Position numbers and translations under genes: made by a program
The notes under the pieces: model-generated
Databases searched by the model: none
The model's input: the letters and a program-made list of their open reading frames with translations, nothing else
Told to the model about the DNA's origin: nothing
In this document: positions 3,974 to 21,084 of the stretch, one piece after another
How the letters are laid out: the number at the start of each line of letters is the position of its first letter
How positions within the stretch are numbered: position 1 is the first letter of the stretch
IMG/VR virus record: IMGVR_UViG_3300044638_003842
Location: 1-27,196 of that record
Strand: one strand, 5' to 3'
From: a virus
Length of the DNA stretch: 27,196 bases

Positions 3974-4158
3974 AAATGTGGAGAAAATCAGAAATACAAC
4001 AACCAAACCCGTTTGAATACGTTTTGGTAAAGTTAGAAAATGAAGATGTGGCATATATTGCCTACTGGGATGAAGACCATTATTTTGAAGCCCATACAAA
4101 CGAGGTGCTACACAATGTAAGCATTTGGATGTATATACCTGTTTTCCCAAATGACTAA
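3970..4158 (+). CDS. DUF551-like small protein
   Basis: This is a 62-residue protein with the spacing seen in DUF551 proteins: an N-terminal PNPFEYVLVKLEN (the VLV strand), a central Trp and acidic patch (YWDEDHYFEAH), and a C-terminal VSIWMYIPVFP matching the usual tHWMpLPepP ending. DUF551 proteins are common small phage and prophage accessory proteins with no agreed role. It starts at an ATGA overlap with the ParB-like gene and overlaps the glycosyltransferase gene by 8 bases, so it is translated as part of this operon. Confidence 0.5.
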   Translation: MKMWRKSEIQQPNPFEYVLVKLENEDVAYIAYWDEDHYFEAHTNEVLHNVSIWMYIPVFPND

Positions 4159-5191
4159 AATAGAACGAGCCACAATAGCAGATGATGAGCAACCCTCCAA
4201 AAAAAGGGTACTTGTTCTTATCGACCAAATCGGTGCGGTTGATTACCATCGCATCGCTATGCCTTTACGCTACATCTATGAGAAAAACATTTTTCACATA
4301 GACTTTGCCATCCAAGAAAAAGAGGTAAACGAAGCGAAGGTTGAGGATTACGACATTGTGATTTTCTCACGCTACTTGTTAAATATGTCAATCGTTGACC
4401 GCTGCATCGCTGCCAAAGTGAAATTAATCGTTGACATTGATGACTATTGGAATGTACCCAAGTACAACCCAGCATACAAGCAATACAAAGAAAAGGGCAA
4501 AGATGCCGTTTTAAAGTCATTGAAGGCTGCATCTATGGTTTGGACAACCACGCCACAACTTGCAGAAAAAGTAAAGGAAATAAACCCCAATGTACATATA
4601 CTTCCCAACTACATTGACCACCAAGAAAACCAATGGTTAGAAAAGAATGACCATCCTTTAACCATCGGATACGTTGGAGGGTTTTCGCACCTGGAAGATA
4701 TCAAGTTACTGCGTGGGCAGATAGGGGATATTTGTGAGAAGTATAATGCAAGGTTTTTATTTTGCGGTTACAATTCAACCGATCCAAATTCCGCAGAGAT
4801 GGAATATCAAATCACAGGTACCCGTCAGCGTCCTGATTGGTTTTGGGTTGGTGAGGTTACAAGTGTATTAAATTACGGAAAGTATTATTCCCACATTGAT
4901 ATAGTACTTGCCCCATTGACTGAAACCCATTTCAATAAACACAAATCAGAATTAAAGATTGTTGAGGCGGCAGCCTATAAATTACCGATACTTGTAAGCG
5001 AAGTTGAACCATACACCAACCACCGAGATAATGAAGGTGTTACATTTGTAAAAAATAATGACTGGTCAATAATTGGTGAGGTGATTAAAAACCGAAAGGA
5101 ACTTGGTGAGAAGAATTATAAGTATTGCCTTGAACACCACAACATTGATACGATAAATAACAAGCGGATAAAACTGCTTACAATGATTTGA
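4151..5191 (+). CDS. GT-B fold glycosyltransferase (GT4-like)
   Basis: This 346-residue protein has the two Rossmann-like halves of a GT-B glycosyltransferase. The N-terminal half begins KKRVLVLIDQIGAVDYHR (18-35) and includes VDIDDYWNVP and a WTTTPQLAEKV segment. The C-terminal donor-binding half starts at IGYVGGFSHLEDI and includes DIVLAPL and SELKIVEAAAYKLPILVS with Glu272, the position that in GT4 enzymes contacts the nucleotide sugar. It would move a sugar from an activated donor to an unknown acceptor. There is no membrane segment, so it acts in the cytoplasm. It pairs with the next gene, 4 bases downstream. Possible acceptors are a virion protein, modified phage DNA or a host surface-glycan precursor. 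Confidence 0.85.
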   Translation: MTKIERATIADDEQPSKKRVLVLIDQIGAVDYHRIAMPLRYIYEKNIFHIDFAIQEKEVNEAKVEDYDIVIFSRYLLNMSIVDRCIAAKVKLIVDIDDYWNVPKYNPAYKQYKEKGKDAVLKSLKAASMVWTTTPQLAEKVKEINPNVHILPNYIDHQENQWLEKNDHPLTIGYVGGFSHLEDIKLLRGQIGDICEKYNARFLFCGYNSTDPNSAEMEYQITGTRQRPDWFWVGEVTSVLNYGKYYSHIDIVLAPLTETHFNKHKSELKIVEAAAYKLPILVSEVEPYTNHRDNEGVTFVKNNDWSIIGEVIKNRKELGEKNYKYCLEHHNIDTINNKRIKLLTMI

Positions 5192-5972: not shown

Positions 5973-6312
5973 TAGAGATGAATTAGAAAAAAAATCACTT
6001 GAAGTAATTGAGAAGCATAAATTGTTTTTCATTCAGGATATTATTGCATATCTACCTTGTACAAGTAGTACCTTTTATCATTTGGAATTGGAAAAATCGG
6101 AAAAGATAAAAGATGCACTTACCGAGGTAAAAACAAACCTTAAAGTTAATATGCGTTCCAAGTGGTATAGGTCAGAAAATCCAACCTTGCAGCTGGCGTT
6201 GATGAAGTTAGTTTCTACCGATGAGGAGTTAAGAAAGTTATCAATGCAACATCAGGTGAATGAAGACTTTGAAAAGCCTATCTTCAATGGGATTGATTTG
6301 GATGTAAAATAA
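5962..6312 (+). CDS. Putative terminase small subunit
   Basis: This 116-residue helical protein lies directly before the large terminase, with its stop sharing a base with that start (TAATG). Residues about 20-40 (LFFIQDIIAYLPCTSSTFYHL) could form a helix-turn-helix. They are followed by KWYRSENPTLQLALMKLVST, a segment I recall from putative small terminases of Bacteroidota phages. Small terminase recognises the packaging site on phage DNA and loads the motor. Identification rests on position and this weak similarity. Confidence 0.65.
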   Translation: MAYNRDELEKKSLEVIEKHKLFFIQDIIAYLPCTSSTFYHLELEKSEKIKDALTEVKTNLKVNMRSKWYRSENPTLQLALMKLVSTDEELRKLSMQHQVNEDFEKPIFNGIDLDVK

Positions 6313-7469
6313 TGTTACAAAAGACCACCGCACAAAATAAGATAGCCCAACTCAAAAAAAGGGTTCGCATTGTCAGAGGTGGTACATCCAGTTCCAAGAC
6401 GTTTAGCATTATCCCAATGCTCATTACCTATGCGGTGCAGAAAGAAAACACCGAGATAAGTGTCGTATCGGAATCTATCCCTCATTTGAGGCGTGGTGCT
6501 ATCCGTGATTTTCTTAAAATTATGCAAATGGTGGGGATGTACGATCCCAACAAATGGAATAAGTCATCTTTAACCTATACTTTTTCCAACAATAGTTTTA
6601 TTGAGTTTTTCTCCGCTGACCAACCTGATAAATTAAGGGGTGCAAGGCGTGATGTGTTATTCATCAATGAGTGCAACAACGTAGATTGGGAATCTTATTA
6701 CCAACTTGCTATTCGTACCCGAAAATTTATTTATTTGGATTACAATCCAGTAACTGAATTTTGGGTTGATACGGAACTTGTACATGATGCAGATTCCGAG
6801 ATGATAGTCCTTACCTACAAAGATAATGAGGCGTTGGATTCATCAATCGTTGCCGAGATAGAGAAAGCCAAAGAGAAAGCCGAAACAAGCGAGTATTGGC
6901 GTAATTGGTGGGCAGTTTACGGACTTGGGCAAATTGGAAATCTTGAAGGGGTTATATTCAGCAACTATCAACTAATTGACACCATCCCAAGCGATGCAAG
7001 GTTATTGGGTTGCGGTGTTGACTTTGGTTATTCAGTTGATCCGACTGCAATAGTTGAGGTGTACCAATACAACGACCAAAGGATAATAAAAGAAATTTGT
7101 TACCGTACGGGGATGCTAAATTCCGACATTGCCAAAGTTTTACCAAAAGGAATACCCGTGTATGCTGATTCTGCTGAACCTAAATCAATAGAAGAAATAC
7201 GAAGATTTGGAATCAGTATCAAAGGAGTAACCAAAGGTAAAGATTCTATCAATTATGGTATTCAGGTGATGCAAGGTCAAAACTATATGATAACCAAAGA
7301 TTCAACCAACCTCATAAAAGAACTGCGTGGATATTGCTGGGACAAGGGCAAGGATGGGAAAACCTTACCGATTCCTGTAGGTGATGACCACATCATCGAT
7401 GCGTGGAGGTACTTTGAAATGGAATCACTTGGGTTAAAAAAGAATTTTGGCTCTTACGACATACGTTAA
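6312..7469 (+). CDS. terL: Terminase large subunit
   Basis: This 385-residue protein is the DNA-packaging motor: an N-terminal ATPase plus a C-terminal RNase H-like nuclease that cuts the concatemer. The Walker A variant GGTSSSKT is at 23-30. Walker B with catalytic Glu is DVLFINE at 114-120. Nuclease metal ligands are Asp237 (GVDFGYSVDP), Asp286 (YADSAEP) and Asp358/Asp359/Asp363 (GDDHIIDAWRY). This matches the PBSX/Terminase_3 type and is close to the family's usual 400-430 residues. It starts at a TAATG overlap with the small subunit. The portal gene, normally next, is over 11 kb downstream in this phage. Confidence 0.95.
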   Translation: MLQKTTAQNKIAQLKKRVRIVRGGTSSSKTFSIIPMLITYAVQKENTEISVVSESIPHLRRGAIRDFLKIMQMVGMYDPNKWNKSSLTYTFSNNSFIEFFSADQPDKLRGARRDVLFINECNNVDWESYYQLAIRTRKFIYLDYNPVTEFWVDTELVHDADSEMIVLTYKDNEALDSSIVAEIEKAKEKAETSEYWRNWWAVYGLGQIGNLEGVIFSNYQLIDTIPSDARLLGCGVDFGYSVDPTAIVEVYQYNDQRIIKEICYRTGMLNSDIAKVLPKGIPVYADSAEPKSIEEIRRFGISIKGVTKGKDSINYGIQVMQGQNYMITKDSTNLIKELRGYCWDKGKDGKTLPIPVGDDHIIDAWRYFEMESLGLKKNFGSYDIR

Positions 7470-12974: not shown

Positions 12975-13114
12975 TAACACAAATAATTAAATTAGTCCAA
13001 ACTAACGAGTTTTATGGCGTTAGTTCAAATGTAGAGATAGCCAAAGGGGCGTACCAATATGCCACAACTTGGAAGCAAACATTTAAAAAAGTAAAAAGAT
13101 GGCAGAAAAAATAG
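12971..13114 (+). CDS. Hidden 47-residue protein between tail tip and tape measure
   Basis: An ATG at 12971 overlaps the previous stop as ATGA, and the frame runs 47 codons to TAG at 13112-13114, overlapping the tape-measure start by 16 bases. It encodes a small basic protein (begins MITQIIKLVQTNEFYGVSSN, ends KKVKRWQKK). The tight overlaps at both ends are the pattern of real genes in this window, and it fills what would otherwise be a 124-base gap. It may be a tail accessory protein; no family is recognised. Confidence 0.55.
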   Translation: MITQIIKLVQTNEFYGVSSNVEIAKGAYQYATTWKQTFKKVKRWQKK

Positions 13115-14820
13115 TCATACCAATAGAGGTACAAGGCTCAAAGGCAGTTAAAGACATTAGCAAAGTCAATGATGCCCTTGATAATACGGGCAAGGCTGCC
13201 GAAGGTAGTAAAAAAGGCTTCGGAAGTTTAGCGGGGCTTTTAAAAGGCGGTCTTGGTATTGGGGCGGTAATGTCATTACTTGATAGCCTTGGCGGTGCAT
13301 TGATGGAAAACCAAAAGGTTCAGGATTTAATGAACAAGGCTATGGTGGTTTTTCAGGGCGTTGTCAATGGAGTTATTGAAGTTCTTGAACCATTATTCGG
13401 ATGGTTGGAAAAAGTATTCAAGGATCCAGTTAAATCAATAAAGGAATTTGGCGAATTGGTTAAGCAAAATTTGATTAATCGTTTTAACGGATTATTGGAA
13501 TTGATACCCCAATTAGGTAAAGCCCTTTCATTATTATTTAAGGGTGAGTTTACCGAGGCTGGTAAAGTAGCGGTTAACGCCTTTGGAAAGGTTGCACTTG
13601 GTGTTGAAGATACCGTTGGTTTAGTTGAAAAAGGTGTAAAGGTGGTAAGTGATGCGGTTGTAAAAATAGGCAAAGCCACAAAGAAAGCATTTGACAACAA
13701 AGATGCCCTTGCGGCTGCCGAAAACAACCTTGCGAGATTATCAATTTTGTTTCAGGGTATCGTTGAGAAATATGATTTGATGGCTGAAAAGCAAAGGCAG
13801 TTGAGGGATGATGAAACCAAAACCATTGAAGAACGTATAAAAGCAAATGAGGAATTATCAAAGGTACTGGATGAAGGGCAGAAAAAAGAACGTGAAAACA
13901 TTGAAGCCCGTATTGGCATCATCCAAATGCAAAATAATCTTTTGGGTAAAACCAAAGAACGGACAAACGAAATATTATCGCTTCAACAAGAATTAACGGG
14001 GATTGACGCTAAATATGCTGGTCTTAAATCCGAGCAATTAACAAATATCAATTCACTTGAAAAAGAGAAAATCGAGTTAAAACGTGCCGAGGTTGAAGGA
14101 ACACTTGAAGCGAATAAGATTATTGCAGATAGCGAAGCCGAATTGGCTGCCGAGGGAATGGATCAGTTTGAGAAAAAAATGGCTGCCATCCAACAAGAAT
14201 TTGAAGCCCGAAGAAAGTTGCTTGATGATGAGATAAGCCAGTTGAAAGAAGGAACACAAGCCTATGTTGATGCAACAAATGAAAAGAAAGTCTTGGATGC
14301 TCAATATACGGCAGACACAAAAGCCCTTGCCAAAGAACGTGCGGACTACGAAACCGAACAGGCGAAATTAGTTGCCGAAAACCAAATGAGTGCCGTGATG
14401 GGTGCTTTAAGTGGTGTTCAATCGTTGGTTGGAGAAAATTCAAAATTCGGTAAAGCCTTGGCAGTGTCTATGGCAATTATTGACACTTATTCAGGGGCAA
14501 CCAAAGCACTTGCACAAGGTGGTACATTTGGATTTATTGGTGCTGCTGGTGTTATCGCTTCGGGTTTGGCGAATGTCAGAGCGATAATGCAACAAGAATT
14601 GCCAGGCGTTGAAGGTGATAGTTCGGGCGGTGGAGTTTCAATGACTGCACCCACAGGACCAAATGTGGGTATAATTAGCGGTCAGATAAATTCATCGGCT
14701 CAATTACTTGGTAGTTTGAATAATTCATTAAGCACCCCACCAAGGGCGTACGTTGTCGGTCAAGATGTAAACTCACAACAATCACTTGATAGGCATATCA
14801 GACAAAATGCAACACTATAA
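13099..14820 (+). CDS. Tail tape measure protein
   Basis: This 573-residue protein sets tail length and is thought to enter the host envelope on infection. It shows a short N-terminal strand (KIVIPIEVQGSKAVKDISKV) and a hydrophobic, Gly-rich segment at about 41-70 (SLAGLLKGGLGIGAVMSLLD). Long charged coiled coils follow at about 200-430 (Glu-, Lys- and Gln-rich). A C-terminal hydrophobic domain at about 445-500 (MAIIDTYSGATKALAQ, then FGFIGAAGVIASGLANVRAI) is typical of Bacteroidota phage tape measures. At the usual about 0.15 nm per residue the tail would be about 85 nm, short to medium for a siphovirus. It precedes the head genes here. Confidence 0.9.
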   Translation: MAEKIVIPIEVQGSKAVKDISKVNDALDNTGKAAEGSKKGFGSLAGLLKGGLGIGAVMSLLDSLGGALMENQKVQDLMNKAMVVFQGVVNGVIEVLEPLFGWLEKVFKDPVKSIKEFGELVKQNLINRFNGLLELIPQLGKALSLLFKGEFTEAGKVAVNAFGKVALGVEDTVGLVEKGVKVVSDAVVKIGKATKKAFDNKDALAAAENNLARLSILFQGIVEKYDLMAEKQRQLRDDETKTIEERIKANEELSKVLDEGQKKERENIEARIGIIQMQNNLLGKTKERTNEILSLQQELTGIDAKYAGLKSEQLTNINSLEKEKIELKRAEVEGTLEANKIIADSEAELAAEGMDQFEKKMAAIQQEFEARRKLLDDEISQLKEGTQAYVDATNEKKVLDAQYTADTKALAKERADYETEQAKLVAENQMSAVMGALSGVQSLVGENSKFGKALAVSMAIIDTYSGATKALAQGGTFGFIGAAGVIASGLANVRAIMQQELPGVEGDSSGGGVSMTAPTGPNVGIISGQINSSAQLLGSLNNSLSTPPRAYVVGQDVNSQQSLDRHIRQNATL

Positions 14821-14844: not shown

Positions 14845-15174
14845 CAAAAGAGAGTAATAAATATCCAATTTGCGGATAACCCAGGTGATGTATCAAAAAA
14901 AATTAAAAGTGCAATAGATTCAAGCGATGAAGTTGCATCAAGAATGCAAAGAATTGCCGTTGATGTGGGCAACTGGGCATTATCTATCAATAACGCTTTA
15001 AAGGTTTTGAATGATGCTAAAAGTACCGCTAAATTAGGTAGAATGCAATCGGAAAGAGCAAAACAAAAGGATGCCGCAAAACAATGGGGTAAACTTGAAG
15101 GACAGGCAATTGATGCGATTAACAAATACTCAAAATTAGCCAAAGCGGTTCAATCACTTGACAAAGTATTATAA
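14842..15174 (+). CDS. Small helical protein of head block, unknown
   Basis: This is a 110-residue, mostly helical and basic protein (begins MQKRVINIQFADNPGDV; KVLNDAKSTAKLGRMQSERA in the middle). It is preceded by the AATCGTTA element and its stop shares a base with the protease start (TAATG). A second protein of equal size, also starting MQK, flanks the protease on the other side at 15742. The pair may be internal head, scaffold-helper or decoration proteins. No family is recognised. Confidence 0.55.
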   Translation: MQKRVINIQFADNPGDVSKKIKSAIDSSDEVASRMQRIAVDVGNWALSINNALKVLNDAKSTAKLGRMQSERAKQKDAAKQWGKLEGQAIDAINKYSKLAKAVQSLDKVL

Positions 15175-15761
15175 TGAAAATCGTTGAATTGATTTTGGAT
15201 GAAGATAGTAAGGTAAGCGGTATTGATGCAATCAGTATCGTTGAAAGCCCCGCCATCGAATCCAATTTTATAGCACTAAACAACCATCAAGTGAAATTTG
15301 CCACCGTTGACACGGATAAGCGGATTTTGATGGGACCTGCCTTAATTCCAAATAAACCAATTTACCGCAACCAAGACGGTGAGGAGTTTTATGTTTATTT
15401 TTCCAAGGCTACCATCGAGAAGGCGATGCAGTTGTACTTGAAAAAGGGCAACCAACACAACGCAACTTTGGAACACGATGGTAAAATCAATGGTTTGACA
15501 TTGGTTGAATCTTGGATTAAAGTAGATGCCGAAAAAGATAAGAGTGCAGCCTATGGGATGAACGATCCAGTAGGTACTTGGTACGTATCAATGAAAGTTG
15601 ATAACGAAGAAATTTGGCAAGAATATGTGAAGAGTGGTAAAGTAAAGGGATTTTCCATTGAAGGTTTCTTTGCCGATAAATCAACCACTATGAGCAAAGA
15701 GGAAATGATGTTAACCGAACTAAAAAAATTATTAAAACTATATGCAAAAGAAAGCAATTAA
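15174..15761 (+). CDS. XkdF-like prohead serine protease
   Basis: This 195-residue protein matches the XkdF-type phage protease (Peptidase_S78_2). It has an N-terminal strand and VSGIDAISIVESPAIESNF, then RILMGPALIPNKPIYR. The likely catalytic His101 is in TLEHDGKINGL. A DPVGTWYVSMKVDNEEIW segment follows, and the likely catalytic Ser161 is in VKGFSIEGFF. Such enzymes cleave scaffold and capsid proteins during head maturation. The protein is the bare protease. The extra C-terminal modules that, from memory, often follow XkdF in this phage group are instead found on the portal (18868-21084). It precedes the scaffold-like and capsid genes. Confidence 0.85.
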   Translation: MKIVELILDEDSKVSGIDAISIVESPAIESNFIALNNHQVKFATVDTDKRILMGPALIPNKPIYRNQDGEEFYVYFSKATIEKAMQLYLKKGNQHNATLEHDGKINGLTLVESWIKVDAEKDKSAAYGMNDPVGTWYVSMKVDNEEIWQEYVKSGKVKGFSIEGFFADKSTTMSKEEMMLTELKKLLKLYAKESN

Positions 15762-16092: not shown

Positions 16093-16112
16093 AATCGTTA
16101 ATTAATTATATG
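16093..16112 (+). promoter_or_regulatory. AATCGTTA start-codon element, copy 3
   Basis: AATCGTTAATTAATTAT runs directly into the ATG of the scaffold-like gene at 16110. It is identical to copy 4 before the tail fibre gene over the first 15 bases. It lies in a 38-base gap with no hairpin or Shine-Dalgarno sequence. Confidence 0.5.
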
Positions 16113-16745
16113 AGCAACGCAAAAGACATCCTTAACCGTGTTTACGATATCGTAATGGGTAAGGAATCAACCGAGGAAACAAAGGTTGAATTAGCACAAG
16201 TAAAAACAATGGATGGTGAAGCCATCTTTGATGCAGAGGCGTTTGAAATAGGTAATGCAGTTTTCATCGTAACCGAAGAAGGTAACATCCCCGTACCAAT
16301 GGGCGAATATATGCTTGAAGATGGAATGAAAATTGAAGTTGATGAGCAAGGCGTTATCGTTGAAGTTTCAATCGAAGGCGAAGAAAAAGAAGAGGAAATC
16401 GTTGAAGAAGTTATCGAAGCAAAAGACGAAATTGAAAAAGAGGAAACCGGTATGATGGAATCAATGCCTAAAAAGGTGGTGAAGTCAAAAACCGAAATGG
16501 AAGAATCTTATTTCTCTAAAATCGAAACTCGTTTAAGTGCTATCGAAAAAGCCAACGAAGATTTGAAAGCCGTTAACGTGCAGTTATCTGCCGAGAATGA
16601 AGAGTTGAAAAAGCAACTTGCTGAAAGCCCAGCAGAACACACAAAGTTCAACCCCGAAGCCACTACACAAACCAACGTACAATTTAAACTTGGTGCAAGA
16701 AGAGGCGAAACAATCCAAGATCGAGTATTTAACCAATTATTTTAA
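16110..16745 (+). CDS. Putative capsid scaffolding protein
   Basis: This 211-residue, very acidic protein lies between the protease and the major capsid gene, the usual scaffold position. The N-terminal part has a beta-rich module (EGNIPVPMGEYMLEDGMKIE and VDEQGVIVEVSIEG) that I recall from Bacteroidota phage head proteins. Then comes a long Glu-rich stretch (about 90-115) and a coiled coil (about 130-172: SKIETRLSAIEKANEDLKAV). The basic C-terminus (FKLGARRGETIQDRVFNQLF) may dock onto the capsid protein. Scaffolds guide procapsid assembly and are removed by the protease. A capsid decoration role is an alternative. Confidence 0.65.
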   Translation: MSNAKDILNRVYDIVMGKESTEETKVELAQVKTMDGEAIFDAEAFEIGNAVFIVTEEGNIPVPMGEYMLEDGMKIEVDEQGVIVEVSIEGEEKEEEIVEEVIEAKDEIEKEETGMMESMPKKVVKSKTEMEESYFSKIETRLSAIEKANEDLKAVNVQLSAENEELKKQLAESPAEHTKFNPEATTQTNVQFKLGARRGETIQDRVFNQLF

Positions 16746-16757
16746 AAACCAAAAATC

Positions 16758-17696
16758 ATGTCAAATAGAAAAATTCATTTAAGCGGACCTACTATCAGTC
16801 CAAACACCTACGCTGGTCAGTTTGCTGGTAAATACATTGCCGCAGCACTTTTGTCAGGTGATACCCTTGCAAAAGATTTAATCACTGTACACCCTAACGT
16901 GGCGTTCAAGCAAGTTATCCGTAACTGGCAGAACACCGTTGCCGTTGCTGATGCAACTTGCGACTTTACTGATTCAAGTTCAGTAACTTTGGGTGAATAC
17001 GTTTTGACCACAACTGAAAAACAAGTTAACTTGCAGTTGTGCAAAAATAACTTGCGTACAACTTGGGAAGCGGCTGAAGCGGGTTACTCTGCATTTGAAA
17101 AATTACCAGCTTCGTTTGAAGAGTTCTTGTTGGCACAAGTTGCTGCCGAGGTTGCTCAATCAATCGAATTGGGTATTTGGAAGAGCAATTTGTTCTATGA
17201 TTCAGCGGTTACTGCTGGTCAAGATGGTATGTTCGGTTACTTGGCTGATAACTCTGCAATCGCAGTAACAGGTTCAGGTGCAACAACTGGTTCAAACGTA
17301 GTTGCTCGTTTACAAGCGATGTTGGATGCTTCTCCAGCTGCGTTGTACGGTAAAGAAGGATTCCAATATTACGTTGGTCCAACTACTATGAAGGCTTACC
17401 AAGCGGCTTTATCTGCTGGTAATTATAACTTCCAGTTCTACGTTGGTGAAAAACCAATGAACTTCCAAGGTATTCCAGTTAACCTTTGCCCAGGTCTTAA
17501 CGACTCTGATTGTGTACTTGGTCTTAAATCTGACTTACACTTTGGTACTGGTTTGTTGAGCGATATTACGAATGAAGTTAAGGTCATAGACATGTCAGAT
17601 ATCGACGGGTCACAAAATGTTCGTGTAATTATGCGTTTCACTGGTGGTATCATCGCTACTAACCCAACTCAACAAGTTATTCTTAACATTTCCTAA
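16758..17696 (+). CDS. Major capsid protein
   Basis: This 312-residue protein forms the icosahedral shell and is probably of HK97-like fold. Its sequence is close to a capsid family I recall from Bacteroidota phages: SPNTYAGQFAGKYIAAALLS, then DLITVHPNVAFKQVIRNW, ATCDFTDSSSVTLGEYVL, VNLQLCKNNLRTTWEAAEAG and a C-terminal VRVIMRFTGGI. It has an even composition and no long charged stretch, as in shell proteins. The start at 16758 follows an A-rich leader (AAAACCAAAAATC) typical of strongly translated Bacteroidota genes. A strong terminator follows the stop. Confidence 0.9.
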   Translation: MSNRKIHLSGPTISPNTYAGQFAGKYIAAALLSGDTLAKDLITVHPNVAFKQVIRNWQNTVAVADATCDFTDSSSVTLGEYVLTTTEKQVNLQLCKNNLRTTWEAAEAGYSAFEKLPASFEEFLLAQVAAEVAQSIELGIWKSNLFYDSAVTAGQDGMFGYLADNSAIAVTGSGATTGSNVVARLQAMLDASPAALYGKEGFQYYVGPTTMKAYQAALSAGNYNFQFYVGEKPMNFQGIPVNLCPGLNDSDCVLGLKSDLHFGTGLLSDITNEVKVIDMSDIDGSQNVRVIMRFTGGIIATNPTQQVILNIS

Positions 17697-18424: not shown

Positions 18425-18871
18425 ATGGTTATCAATAATACCACAACATCTATTTCATTTTTCCCCTTTACATCATTTGACGGTGTAAGTCAAGGGGGCG
18501 GTGGGAATGATTCATTTTTATTACTTGAAAGTGGTGATTTTCTTTTACAAGAAGATGGATCAAAATTTGTACTTGCGTACGCTGGTGGTACGGTAGATGT
18601 TGAGGTGTGGCATAAAAACACAAAAACAATGGTTGAAGCAGAATCATCAGTTACAATAGTAGGCAGCAAGGTGACGGTAACTTTGCCGTCATTGTCAAAC
18701 ATTACTGCGGTGGCACAGGACCTCGATACTATTTTAATTAGAATTAAATACGAAGGAAAGTTGATGTGGGAATATGTGGCTACTTGGTCAACCGAATCAA
18801 CAAACATTAATAATACCTTTAAAACTTGGGATACAACTGCTGACGAAAGCCCTGAATGGATAACGATATGA
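18425..18871 (+). CDS. Small virion-type protein with ESGDFLLQEDG hairpin repeat
   Basis: This is a 148-residue acidic, beta-rich protein. Residues 32-50 form two tandem copies of a short beta motif (LLLESGDF and LLQEDGSKF), a pattern I recall in structural proteins of freshwater and marine phages. The remainder alternates strands (VDVEVWHKNTKTMVE; SSVTIVGSKVTVTLPS), like an immunoglobulin-type or tail-attached domain. Its stop overlaps the portal start (ATGA at 18868). It lies just downstream of the second terminator; I saw no matching promoter in the 91-base gap, so it may depend on readthrough. It could be a tail- or head-decorating protein. Confidence 0.6.
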   Translation: MVINNTTTSISFFPFTSFDGVSQGGGGNDSFLLLESGDFLLQEDGSKFVLAYAGGTVDVEVWHKNTKTMVEAESSVTIVGSKVTVTLPSLSNITAVAQDLDTILIRIKYEGKLMWEYVATWSTESTNINNTFKTWDTTADESPEWITI

Positions 18872-21084
18872 GTAATTTGAAATTTATACAATTAGAAACC
18901 TATACAAGCCCAACCATCGTTGAGCAAAAAAATAAAGAGTGGGTTGAATACGGTCAGGATAATAACTATTATCAATACCTTATTGACCTTTACTACGGCT
19001 CTGCAACCAATAACGCTTGTATAAAAGGTATATCAGATTTAATCTACGGGGATGGTTTAGAGGTGGTTCGTGCCGATAGGCATTTATCGGGTTACCTTGA
19101 CTTAAAAAAACTATTTCACGAAGATTGTTTGCGAAATGCTGCAATGGATTTGAAGATGCTTGGTCAATGTGCTATTCACTTGGTTAAGTCCAAGGATAGA
19201 AAAAAGTACGTTAAGGCTGAACATTGGGCAATTCAAACTTTACGCCCTGAAAAATGCAACGATAAAGGGGAAATTGAAGGCTATTATTTTGCACCTGATT
19301 GGAGTAAATTAAAGAGAGGTCAAAAACCACACCGATTTGCTGCCTTTGGCTTTGATGAAAATGCAACCGAGTGCGTATTGGTTATTAAACCTTACTCAAC
19401 GGGTAACTATTATTTCAGCCCAGTAGATTACCAAGGGGGTACACAATGGGCAGAACTTGAAACCGAGATTTCAAACTATCATATCAATAACATCAAGAAC
19501 GGAATGGCTCCGTCAATGTTGATTAACTTCAACAACGGACAACCACCAGCAGAGGTTAAAGATATGATTGAAGCCCAAATCATCAATAAGTTCACAGGCT
19601 CATCAAATACGGGTAAGTTTATCCTATCGTTTAACGATAACGCAGAAAGCAAAGCGGACATAACACCCGTTCAGTTATCTGACGCACATAACCAATATCA
19701 GTTCCTTTCAACGGAATCAATGCAAAAGGTAATGATGTCGCACCGTGTGACCTCACCAATGCTTTTAGGTATAAAAGACCAAACTGGATTCGGTAATAAT
19801 GCAGAGGAGTTAAAAACCGCATCTATATTATTTGATAACACGGTTATAAGACCTTTCCAAAGATTGCTTTTAGATGGTGTGAGAAAGATAATGAACGCCA
19901 ATGGTTACAACTTGGACATTTATTTCAAGACATTGCAGCCTTTGGAGTTTACTGATTTATCGGGTAAGGTAGTAAACGAAGAAACAAAAGAAAAGGAATT
20001 TGGATTCAGTAAAGTTGAACTTGTTAAACCTAACCCAAGTGAGAGCAAAGATGATTTTTTAGCACGTTGCATCCCTGTTGTCGTTAAAGAGGGCAAGGAT
20101 GCGGATCAAGCGGCTGCAATTTGTTATTCATATTTTGAAGGTGAGAAGGTAGAACTTGAAGAATCATTCACCGATTACCCCGAAGGGGCATCCAACAACG
20201 CTAAAAGGGCGTTAAAATGGGTGATGCAACACGGTTGGGGTGACTGCGGTACAAACGTAGGTAAAGCAAGGGCGCACCAATTAGCCAATAAAGAACCCAT
20301 CTCAATTGAGACGGTTAAAAGAATGGCTGCATTTCGTAGGCATCAACAAAACAAAGATGTGCCATATTCCCAAGGATGTGGTGGATTGATGTGGGATGCT
20401 TGGGGCGGTGACGCTGGAATCCGTTGGGCAGAAACCAAGGTTAACAATTTGCAGTTAAGTGCAGACTTACCCGAATTTACCGAGGAAATAGAGAACGAAT
20501 GGTTGGACTATTTGAAAGACAAAGGCGAAGTTATTGGTGAGGAGTTTGAATTGATTGATGAAAGCCCCGTTACTGATGACAACGAATATAAGTTTTTCAA
20601 AAGATTTGCCAACCCCGAAGATAAAAGCAAGGATGATAAAGGGGTTTACCTGATTCGCTACCGATACGCACCAATGAGTGCAAGTGGTAACTCTCGTCAA
20701 TTCTGCAAAGATATGGTTGCCAATGCCAAGTTAGGCGTGGTATACCGAAGAGAGGACATTGATACGATGGGCGATGATGGAATAAACGGTCAATTTGCCC
20801 CAAGTGGAAAATCAAATTACTCTATTTGGAAGTACAAAGGGGGCGTGAATTGTAAACATCAATGGTATCGCTTGACCTATATGCGTAAACGTGTGAGTGG
20901 TGGTAAGTTTATCCCATTGACACCCGAAGAGAAAAGCCAAGCCATCAAAGATTTGGACAATTACAAAAGGGTAAGTAACCAAAGTGCGGATGCAGCTGGT
21001 GTACCTTTCAGTCCACCTGATTGGCAAACCGCATCAACCAAGACCATTGATTTACCGAACAAAGGAAGTTTAAAGAATAAATAA
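18868..21084 (+). CDS. Portal protein fused to C-terminal protease-associated modules
   Basis: This is a 738-residue protein. Residues 1 to about 370 are a portal: the dodecameric DNA gate at the head vertex (YFSPVDYQGGTQWAELETEI, then ISNYHINNIKNGMAPSMLIN, KFILSFND, QYQFLSTES and SHRVTSPMLLGIKDQTGFG). After it come three extra modules. One is KPNPSESKDDFLARCIP with DADQAAAICYSYF (388-427). One is a basic helical module with NNAKRALKW, CGTNVGKARAHQLAN, ETVKRMAAFRRHQ and GGDAGIRWAE (434-530). The last is a C-terminal module with YRYAPMSASGNSRQFCKDM, GVNCKHQWYR and a DLPNKGSLKN end. From memory these modules more often follow the prohead protease, so this is an unusual fusion. The start 18868 is an ATGA overlap; 18856 is an alternative. 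Confidence 0.85.
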   Translation: MSNLKFIQLETYTSPTIVEQKNKEWVEYGQDNNYYQYLIDLYYGSATNNACIKGISDLIYGDGLEVVRADRHLSGYLDLKKLFHEDCLRNAAMDLKMLGQCAIHLVKSKDRKKYVKAEHWAIQTLRPEKCNDKGEIEGYYFAPDWSKLKRGQKPHRFAAFGFDENATECVLVIKPYSTGNYYFSPVDYQGGTQWAELETEISNYHINNIKNGMAPSMLINFNNGQPPAEVKDMIEAQIINKFTGSSNTGKFILSFNDNAESKADITPVQLSDAHNQYQFLSTESMQKVMMSHRVTSPMLLGIKDQTGFGNNAEELKTASILFDNTVIRPFQRLLLDGVRKIMNANGYNLDIYFKTLQPLEFTDLSGKVVNEETKEKEFGFSKVELVKPNPSESKDDFLARCIPVVVKEGKDADQAAAICYSYFEGEKVELEESFTDYPEGASNNAKRALKWVMQHGWGDCGTNVGKARAHQLANKEPISIETVKRMAAFRRHQQNKDVPYSQGCGGLMWDAWGGDAGIRWAETKVNNLQLSADLPEFTEEIENEWLDYLKDKGEVIGEEFELIDESPVTDDNEYKFFKRFANPEDKSKDDKGVYLIRYRYAPMSASGNSRQFCKDMVANAKLGVVYRREDIDTMGDDGINGQFAPSGKSNYSIWKYKGGVNCKHQWYRLTYMRKRVSGGKFIPLTPEEKSQAIKDLDNYKRVSNQSADAAGVPFSPPDWQTASTKTIDLPNKGSLKNK

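Follow-up and report, generated by a model that had tools for sequence, protein, structure and literature searches.

A phage portal protein carrying three C-terminal modules that reside in the XkdF protease of related phages

Results

A portal joined to three conserved modules

The window, the whole stretch of 27,196 bases that was analyzed, is a virus record and harbors on its plus strand an uninterrupted open reading frame of 738 aa (18868-21084), in which a portal is joined to three C-terminal modules (M1, M2 and M3). An in-frame ATG is present four codons upstream, at 18856; the start at 18868 is plausible because its ATG overlaps the stop codon of the upstream gene as ATGA. The portal core (residues 1-378, 18868-20001) is HK97/PF04860-like. 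In profile searches residues 4-362 matched phrog_33693 with E=1.8e-102, as expected of an HK97-type portal, and Pfam Phage_portal (PF04860) was matched with E=5.6e-7, under the curated cut-off. Homologous portals were found in six bacterial genome contigs, all of them Bacteroidota MAGs, and the window is a phage of Bacteroidota.

M1 (residues 381-428, 20008-20151) is predicted to form a helical hairpin and contains two cysteines (ESKDDFLARC...AAAICYSYF). It is followed by M2 (residues 437-530, 20176-20457), which is all-alpha in the structure model with a core pLDDT mostly above 90, and by an acidic linker (residues 532-585, 20461-20622) that is partly of low confidence and runs into M3. The core of M3 (residues ~586-680, 20623-20907) is a Cys/His module, and a C-terminal tail (residues 691-738, 20938-21081) lies outside the three modules. 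A scan with M1 retrieved 300 encoded relatives, M2 matched phrog_2859 (E=2.9e-17) and has at least 597 relatives, and across the 23 aligned M3 members 12 columns are invariant, FC and C.H.W among them. The conserved Cys and His residues of M3 hint at metal binding. By their sequence conservation M1, M2 and M3 are judged to be conserved domains and not chance products. Neither Pfam, NCBIfam nor PHROGs offers a named function for any of the three. The polypeptide contains several modules, but none of those in the window has a recognized enzymatic function that would mark it as a polyvalent protein. M2 is present in one copy in the record.

The earlier note on this DNA had described a portal fused to three modules, and this description was confirmed, each module being located where it had been placed. 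A hidden stop codon or frameshift separating the two halves was ruled out: the translation is uninterrupted, and independent contigs encode the same fused open reading frame (742 aa, counted stop to stop).

The head genes of the window

The gene of an XkdF-type head maturation protease (15174-15761, plus strand, 195 aa) is located 3.1 kb upstream of the portal gene. Residues 41-165 of its product matched Peptidase_S78_2/XkdF (PF14550) with E=1.6e-15, identifying the catalytic domain. In line with the earlier note this protease is bare, as none of the modules lies within its 195 aa. When it was aligned with its relatives, an empty slot was observed after residue 38 (about 15287/15288), exactly where these hold M1-[M2]-M3. 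Two further genes on the plus strand lie between protease and portal. The first (16110-16745) encodes an acidic, Lys/Glu rich protein of 211 aa and adjoins the major capsid gene; from this position it is probably the scaffold. The second (16758-17696, 312 aa) is without a Pfam hit and probably encodes the major capsid protein, as suggested by position and composition; related contigs have a homologue of this gene between those for protease and portal. Upstream of the protease, a coiled-coil-rich open reading frame (13099-14820) resembles a tape measure by eye, which makes the gene order unusual. A glycosyltransferase gene (4151-5191; Glyco_trans_1_4, E=1.3e-9) is found upstream of the terminase gene (6312-7469).

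M3 as the regular C-terminus of the portal clade

Among the IMG/VR relatives, the complete portal open reading frames closest to that of the window have M3, with or without M1 and M2; in one locus (L122) M3 is a separate open reading frame. The phrog_33693 model itself includes M3, and the portal of an isolate, Nonlabens phage P12024S, has it as well. Fusion of M3 to the portal appears from these sequences to be ordinary for the clade of the window. The earlier note had treated all three modules as foreign to the portal, a view that depends on their being rare in this clade; this does not hold for M3, the standard C-terminus, but does hold for M1 and M2, which are carried by a minority. Stand-alone M3 open reading frames of ~195 aa were seen in L122, directly after a portal-M1-M2 open reading frame, and in L127. 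With the M3 of L127 as query, only four loci were found.

The modules inside the proteases of relatives

The earlier note had assigned the modules to XkdF-like proteases of Bacteroidota phages. This was supported by about 45 contigs, retrieved by the scan with M1, that have bare portals and an XkdF with M1, in many cases M2 and in most M3. The modules are inserted between the N-terminal segment of the protease and its catalytic domain, mostly in the order M1-[M2]-M3 and in five contigs as M2-M1-M3. Median identity between the protease-borne and the window modules is 61% for M1, 49% for M2 and 46% for M3. Among records whose protease carries M3, all 15 complete portal open reading frames are short (379-419 aa), and these bare portals are homologous to the portal core of the window (E 1e-82 to 1e-92). 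A record-wide search detected exactly one M3 copy in 24/24 of these records, M3 being single-copy in all searched records that had it, and no M3 was found in proteases of the clade of the window. Across the sampled relatives M3 is thus carried by portal or protease, never by both. The sample consists mostly of metagenome fragments with many near copies, and the fetched loci are best matches, not a random draw.

In two contigs (L345 and L357) the cassette is split: the protease holds M1-M2, and M3 is found in a portal of 667-668 aa; in L357 the portal M3 was missed by the local model and detected by the record-wide search. M3 was not found in three protease-cassette records (G063-G065), two of which have a portal cut at the contig end and one a bare portal, and in L260, with a short portal, M3 was not seen in the protease. 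The bare portals of phages that have M3 in the protease group into a single supported clade, and the change of carrier was therefore perhaps a single event. For M2, 58 contigs were scored: it is in the portal in 22, in the protease in 25, in neither in 11 and in both in none. A strict statistical exclusion of M2 between portal and protease was nevertheless not supported, as just one or two independent switches underlie these counts and the tree-aware test was non-significant. In the record of L012, a second and different head module was observed at about 16 kb, in which XkdF holds M1-M2 (L279); this 62-kb contig may join two viral genomes because the second head module differs from the first. 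In the open-access full-text literature searched, no earlier account of domain exchange between XkdF and portal, or of portal cleavage, was found.

A variable hinge between portal and M3

The region between the portal core and M3, here called the hinge, differs even between close relatives. In a portal-only scan M2 was found in 13/80 loci. A portal 99% identical to that of the window (L004) has M2 and no M1, whereas one 82% identical (L007) has M1 and no M2. L013 lacks both modules and its neighbor L012 has both, and L066 and L077, with near-identical portals, differ in the absence and presence of M2. The hinge of L023 contains an in-frame remnant of M2 of which both ends are kept and the middle is deleted, a fossil that we read as direct evidence of M2 loss. 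On the portal tree at least six changes are needed for M1 and at least six for M2. In comparisons that allow dS to be estimated, purifying selection on M2 was found, with omega mostly about 0.05-0.15.

Other hinges harbor different inserts. The portal of L028 (1081-3153) holds a HAD-like domain with the motifs DYDDT, ISAR and DNN.D, which shares 51-60% identity with HAD-like domains that are joined to M2 in other phages; its family was not recognized in a Pfam search. In L257 the hinge is occupied by DUF3721 and a CWxGYE..PNC motif, in L077 and L133 by M2 and the CWxGYE..PNC motif, and some hinges are empty of inserts. Judged from this distribution, M1 and M2 are accessory modules that come and go.

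Fold and profile searches

As a candidate family for M3 the classical MuF domain was considered and rejected on sequence grounds, after negative results with Pfam, PHROG and hhalign. Phage_Mu_F (PF04233) was detected in 0/23 M3 members and nowhere in the window record, and the hhalign alignment of M3 with MuF scored no better than controls. The model of M3 (pLDDT 75.5) had no match in the PDB. In BFVD it matched, among others, XkdF, portal and HAD-like proteins from uncultured phages significantly; the first named match beyond those, the GpF-like protein of HCTV-1, is insignificant (E=1.7, probability 0.13). The all-helical model of M1-M2 (pLDDT 83.4) gave no Foldseek match with E<1 in the PDB, and its best VIA-align Z of 3.0 is uninformative. 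Solved relatives by sequence were significant neither for the whole protein nor for M2 or M3. The best PDB sequence match of M2 was a DeoR-type regulator at a non-significant E=1.5; the M2 segment ISRDTIARM resembles a helix-turn-helix.

M2 in other viruses

M2 was also found in archaeal viruses and in those of several groups of bacteria. In the L144 family it follows a canonical MuF domain (PF04233, E=1.9e-7), in the haloarchaeal viruses HRTV-28 and HRTV-4 portal, M2 and MuF form one protein, and in HGTV-1 M2 is located within the prohead protease. In Roseobacter phage CRP-811 (L275:3971-6418) it is the N-terminal part of a protein that fuses an S78 protease to the capsid domain; this protein, annotated as major capsid protein, consists of M2, a TUDOR-like domain, the S78 protease and the capsid domain. 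M2 also occurs alone, as a gene between a glycosyltransferase gene and terL (L141:7863-8288) and in phage PaBG beside topoisomerase II genes, where the record annotates it as putative DNA-binding. Conserved basic charge as a sign of DNA binding was rejected, as M2 varies widely in net charge, being strongly acidic in halophilic viruses and, at the other extreme, strongly basic in PaBG. The portal of HFTV1 aligns to that of HRTV-4 on both sides of ~150 aa that hold M2 and are absent in HFTV1, and from this alignment the two can be regarded as a natural pair with and without M2 in archaeal viruses.

Discussion

The portal and the maturation protease are commonly regarded as distinct parts of the head, and the C-terminus of the portal faces the capsid interior. 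Either of the two fusions would bring M3 inside the head, because of this orientation of the portal and because the protease resides within the prohead. The reading we favor, at a probability of roughly 60%, is that the product of this open reading frame is a portal to which an inner-head cassette is covalently joined, and that in the cassette M3 behaves like a MuF protein of the SPP1 gp7 type and M1 and M2 are swappable passengers. M3 would have been fused to the C-terminus of the portal in one lineage and inserted into the XkdF protease in a sister lineage, so that portal fusion and protease insertion would be two routes for carrying M3, along with its passengers, into the prohead. The hinge and the matching slot of the protease would accept M1, M2, the HAD-like domain, DUF3721 and the CWxGYE..PNC module, and such accessory modules may ride inside the head as passengers that are rapidly gained and lost, possibly with a role in ejection. 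That M3 works like MuF is meant by analogy, as a claim of function and not of membership. SPP1 gp7, a MuF protein, enters the procapsid via the portal, is not needed for assembly and supports infection (PMC6316719). This precedent favors the reading, as do the cassette in XkdF of phages with bare portals, the one M3 copy per record, the split cassettes of L345 and L357, the empty slot in the window protease, the changing hinge contents and the similar layout in haloarchaeal viruses. Counted against it are the negative MuF comparisons of M3, the single clade behind the complementary pattern of M3, the records in which M3 was not found (G063-G065 and L260) and the occurrence of M2 on its own beside terL or topoisomerase genes, outside the head genes.

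Known systems show several of these features. In MuF proteins of known phages the domain is fused either to the portal or to the protease. HRTV-28 gp9 and HRTV-4 gp30 (Pormufvirus) are alike to the window protein in combining portal, M2 and a C-terminal minor-head domain in one polypeptide, and M2 of HRTV-28 is 52% identical to that of the window. However, the C-terminal domain is a PF04233 MuF in HRTV-28 (E=9e-11) and annotated as Mu gpF-like in HRTV-4, whereas M3 of the window is without detectable MuF similarity; M1 was not seen in either virus, and tblastn with the window protein matched only M2, the portals not being detectably similar. The portal gp13 of HFTV1 (PDB 8QQN, PMC12494034) likewise has a MuF-like C-terminus in the same chain, but it has no M2, an archaeal host and no sequence match to the window protein. 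Fusions of a capsid maturation protease with a MuF-like domain in mycobacteriophages and Streptomyces phages place the minor-head domain on the protease, as in the relatives of the window, although the domain is of the PF04233 type and not M3, and the protease part is assigned by record annotation. Nonlabens phages P12024S and P12024L are closest in having a homologous portal with a C-terminal M3 and a homologous XkdF protease, and they differ by having neither M1 nor M2. Extra domains inside the head are also carried by the portal or MuF in polyvalent proteins and MuF toxins (PMC5512222, PMC5576092); these domains are enzymatic or toxins, and M1, M2 and M3 go unnamed in the available portions of the two papers.

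Portal and MuF proteins carry effector domains, including enzymes, in many phages (PMC5512222), and M1, M2 and the HAD-like domain could accordingly be injected effectors of the polyvalent type that act on host nucleic acids or nucleotides. The recognizable motifs of the HAD-like domain in the same slot, the annotation and the topoisomerase II neighbors of M2 in PaBG and the helix-turn-helix-like segment of M2, with its non-significant DeoR-type match, point in this direction. We nevertheless consider such effectors unlikely, as M2 matches no fold or family significantly and varies in net charge, and the HAD-like domain is not recognized by Pfam.

The earlier note had suggested that, if the protease cuts the portal polyprotein, the modules could serve as internal proteins of the head, to be delivered or removed at maturation; in this model XkdF would cut at the hinge and free M1-M2-M3. 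Sister lineages do carry the modules in their maturation protease and the window carries them in its portal, the hinge is short, variable and linker-like, and phages such as SPN3US have heads in which internal proteins are cleaved and ejected. However, insert-free hinges showed by eye no obvious common motif beyond TGVKLS, and the HFTV1 portal was deposited at its full 675 aa with the MuF-like end, a length that refers to the deposited sequence and not to modelled residues; we regard cleavage as quite unlikely. A purely structural role, with M3 as a portal crown or internal-core domain stabilizing the DNA-filled head or prohead core and M1 and M2 as neutral decorations, would agree with the near universality of M3 in the portal clade of the window, its invariant Cys/His residues and the erratic presence of M1 and M2, but it is improbable, since M3 in the protease of the sister lineage would form no crown on the portal, and purifying selection on M2 and its recurrence in archaeal and bacterial viruses are unexpected for neutral filler.

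The reading of a portal with an inner-head cassette can be extended, and the extension is put forward tentatively, as a possibility. M3 may be an unrecognized, obligatory, single-copy inner-head domain, equivalent to MuF without detectable homology, that has changed its covalent carrier from one to the other of portal and protease; M3 and the slot beside it may constitute a general docking system that loads exchangeable passengers, including enzymes, in phages of bacteria and archaea.

Taken together, the distribution of M1, M2 and M3 suggests that they form a set of interchangeable inner-head parts, and the three domains, for which Pfam, NCBIfam and PHROGs name no function, gain a shared context. 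The hinge would be a point at which the portal tolerates insertions and is a candidate passenger slot. The natural swaps between portal and protease would make the function of a MuF-like minor head domain directly testable. A domain that occurs once per genome and lives in either carrier would imply that it is entry into the prohead that matters, and not the protein that carries it.
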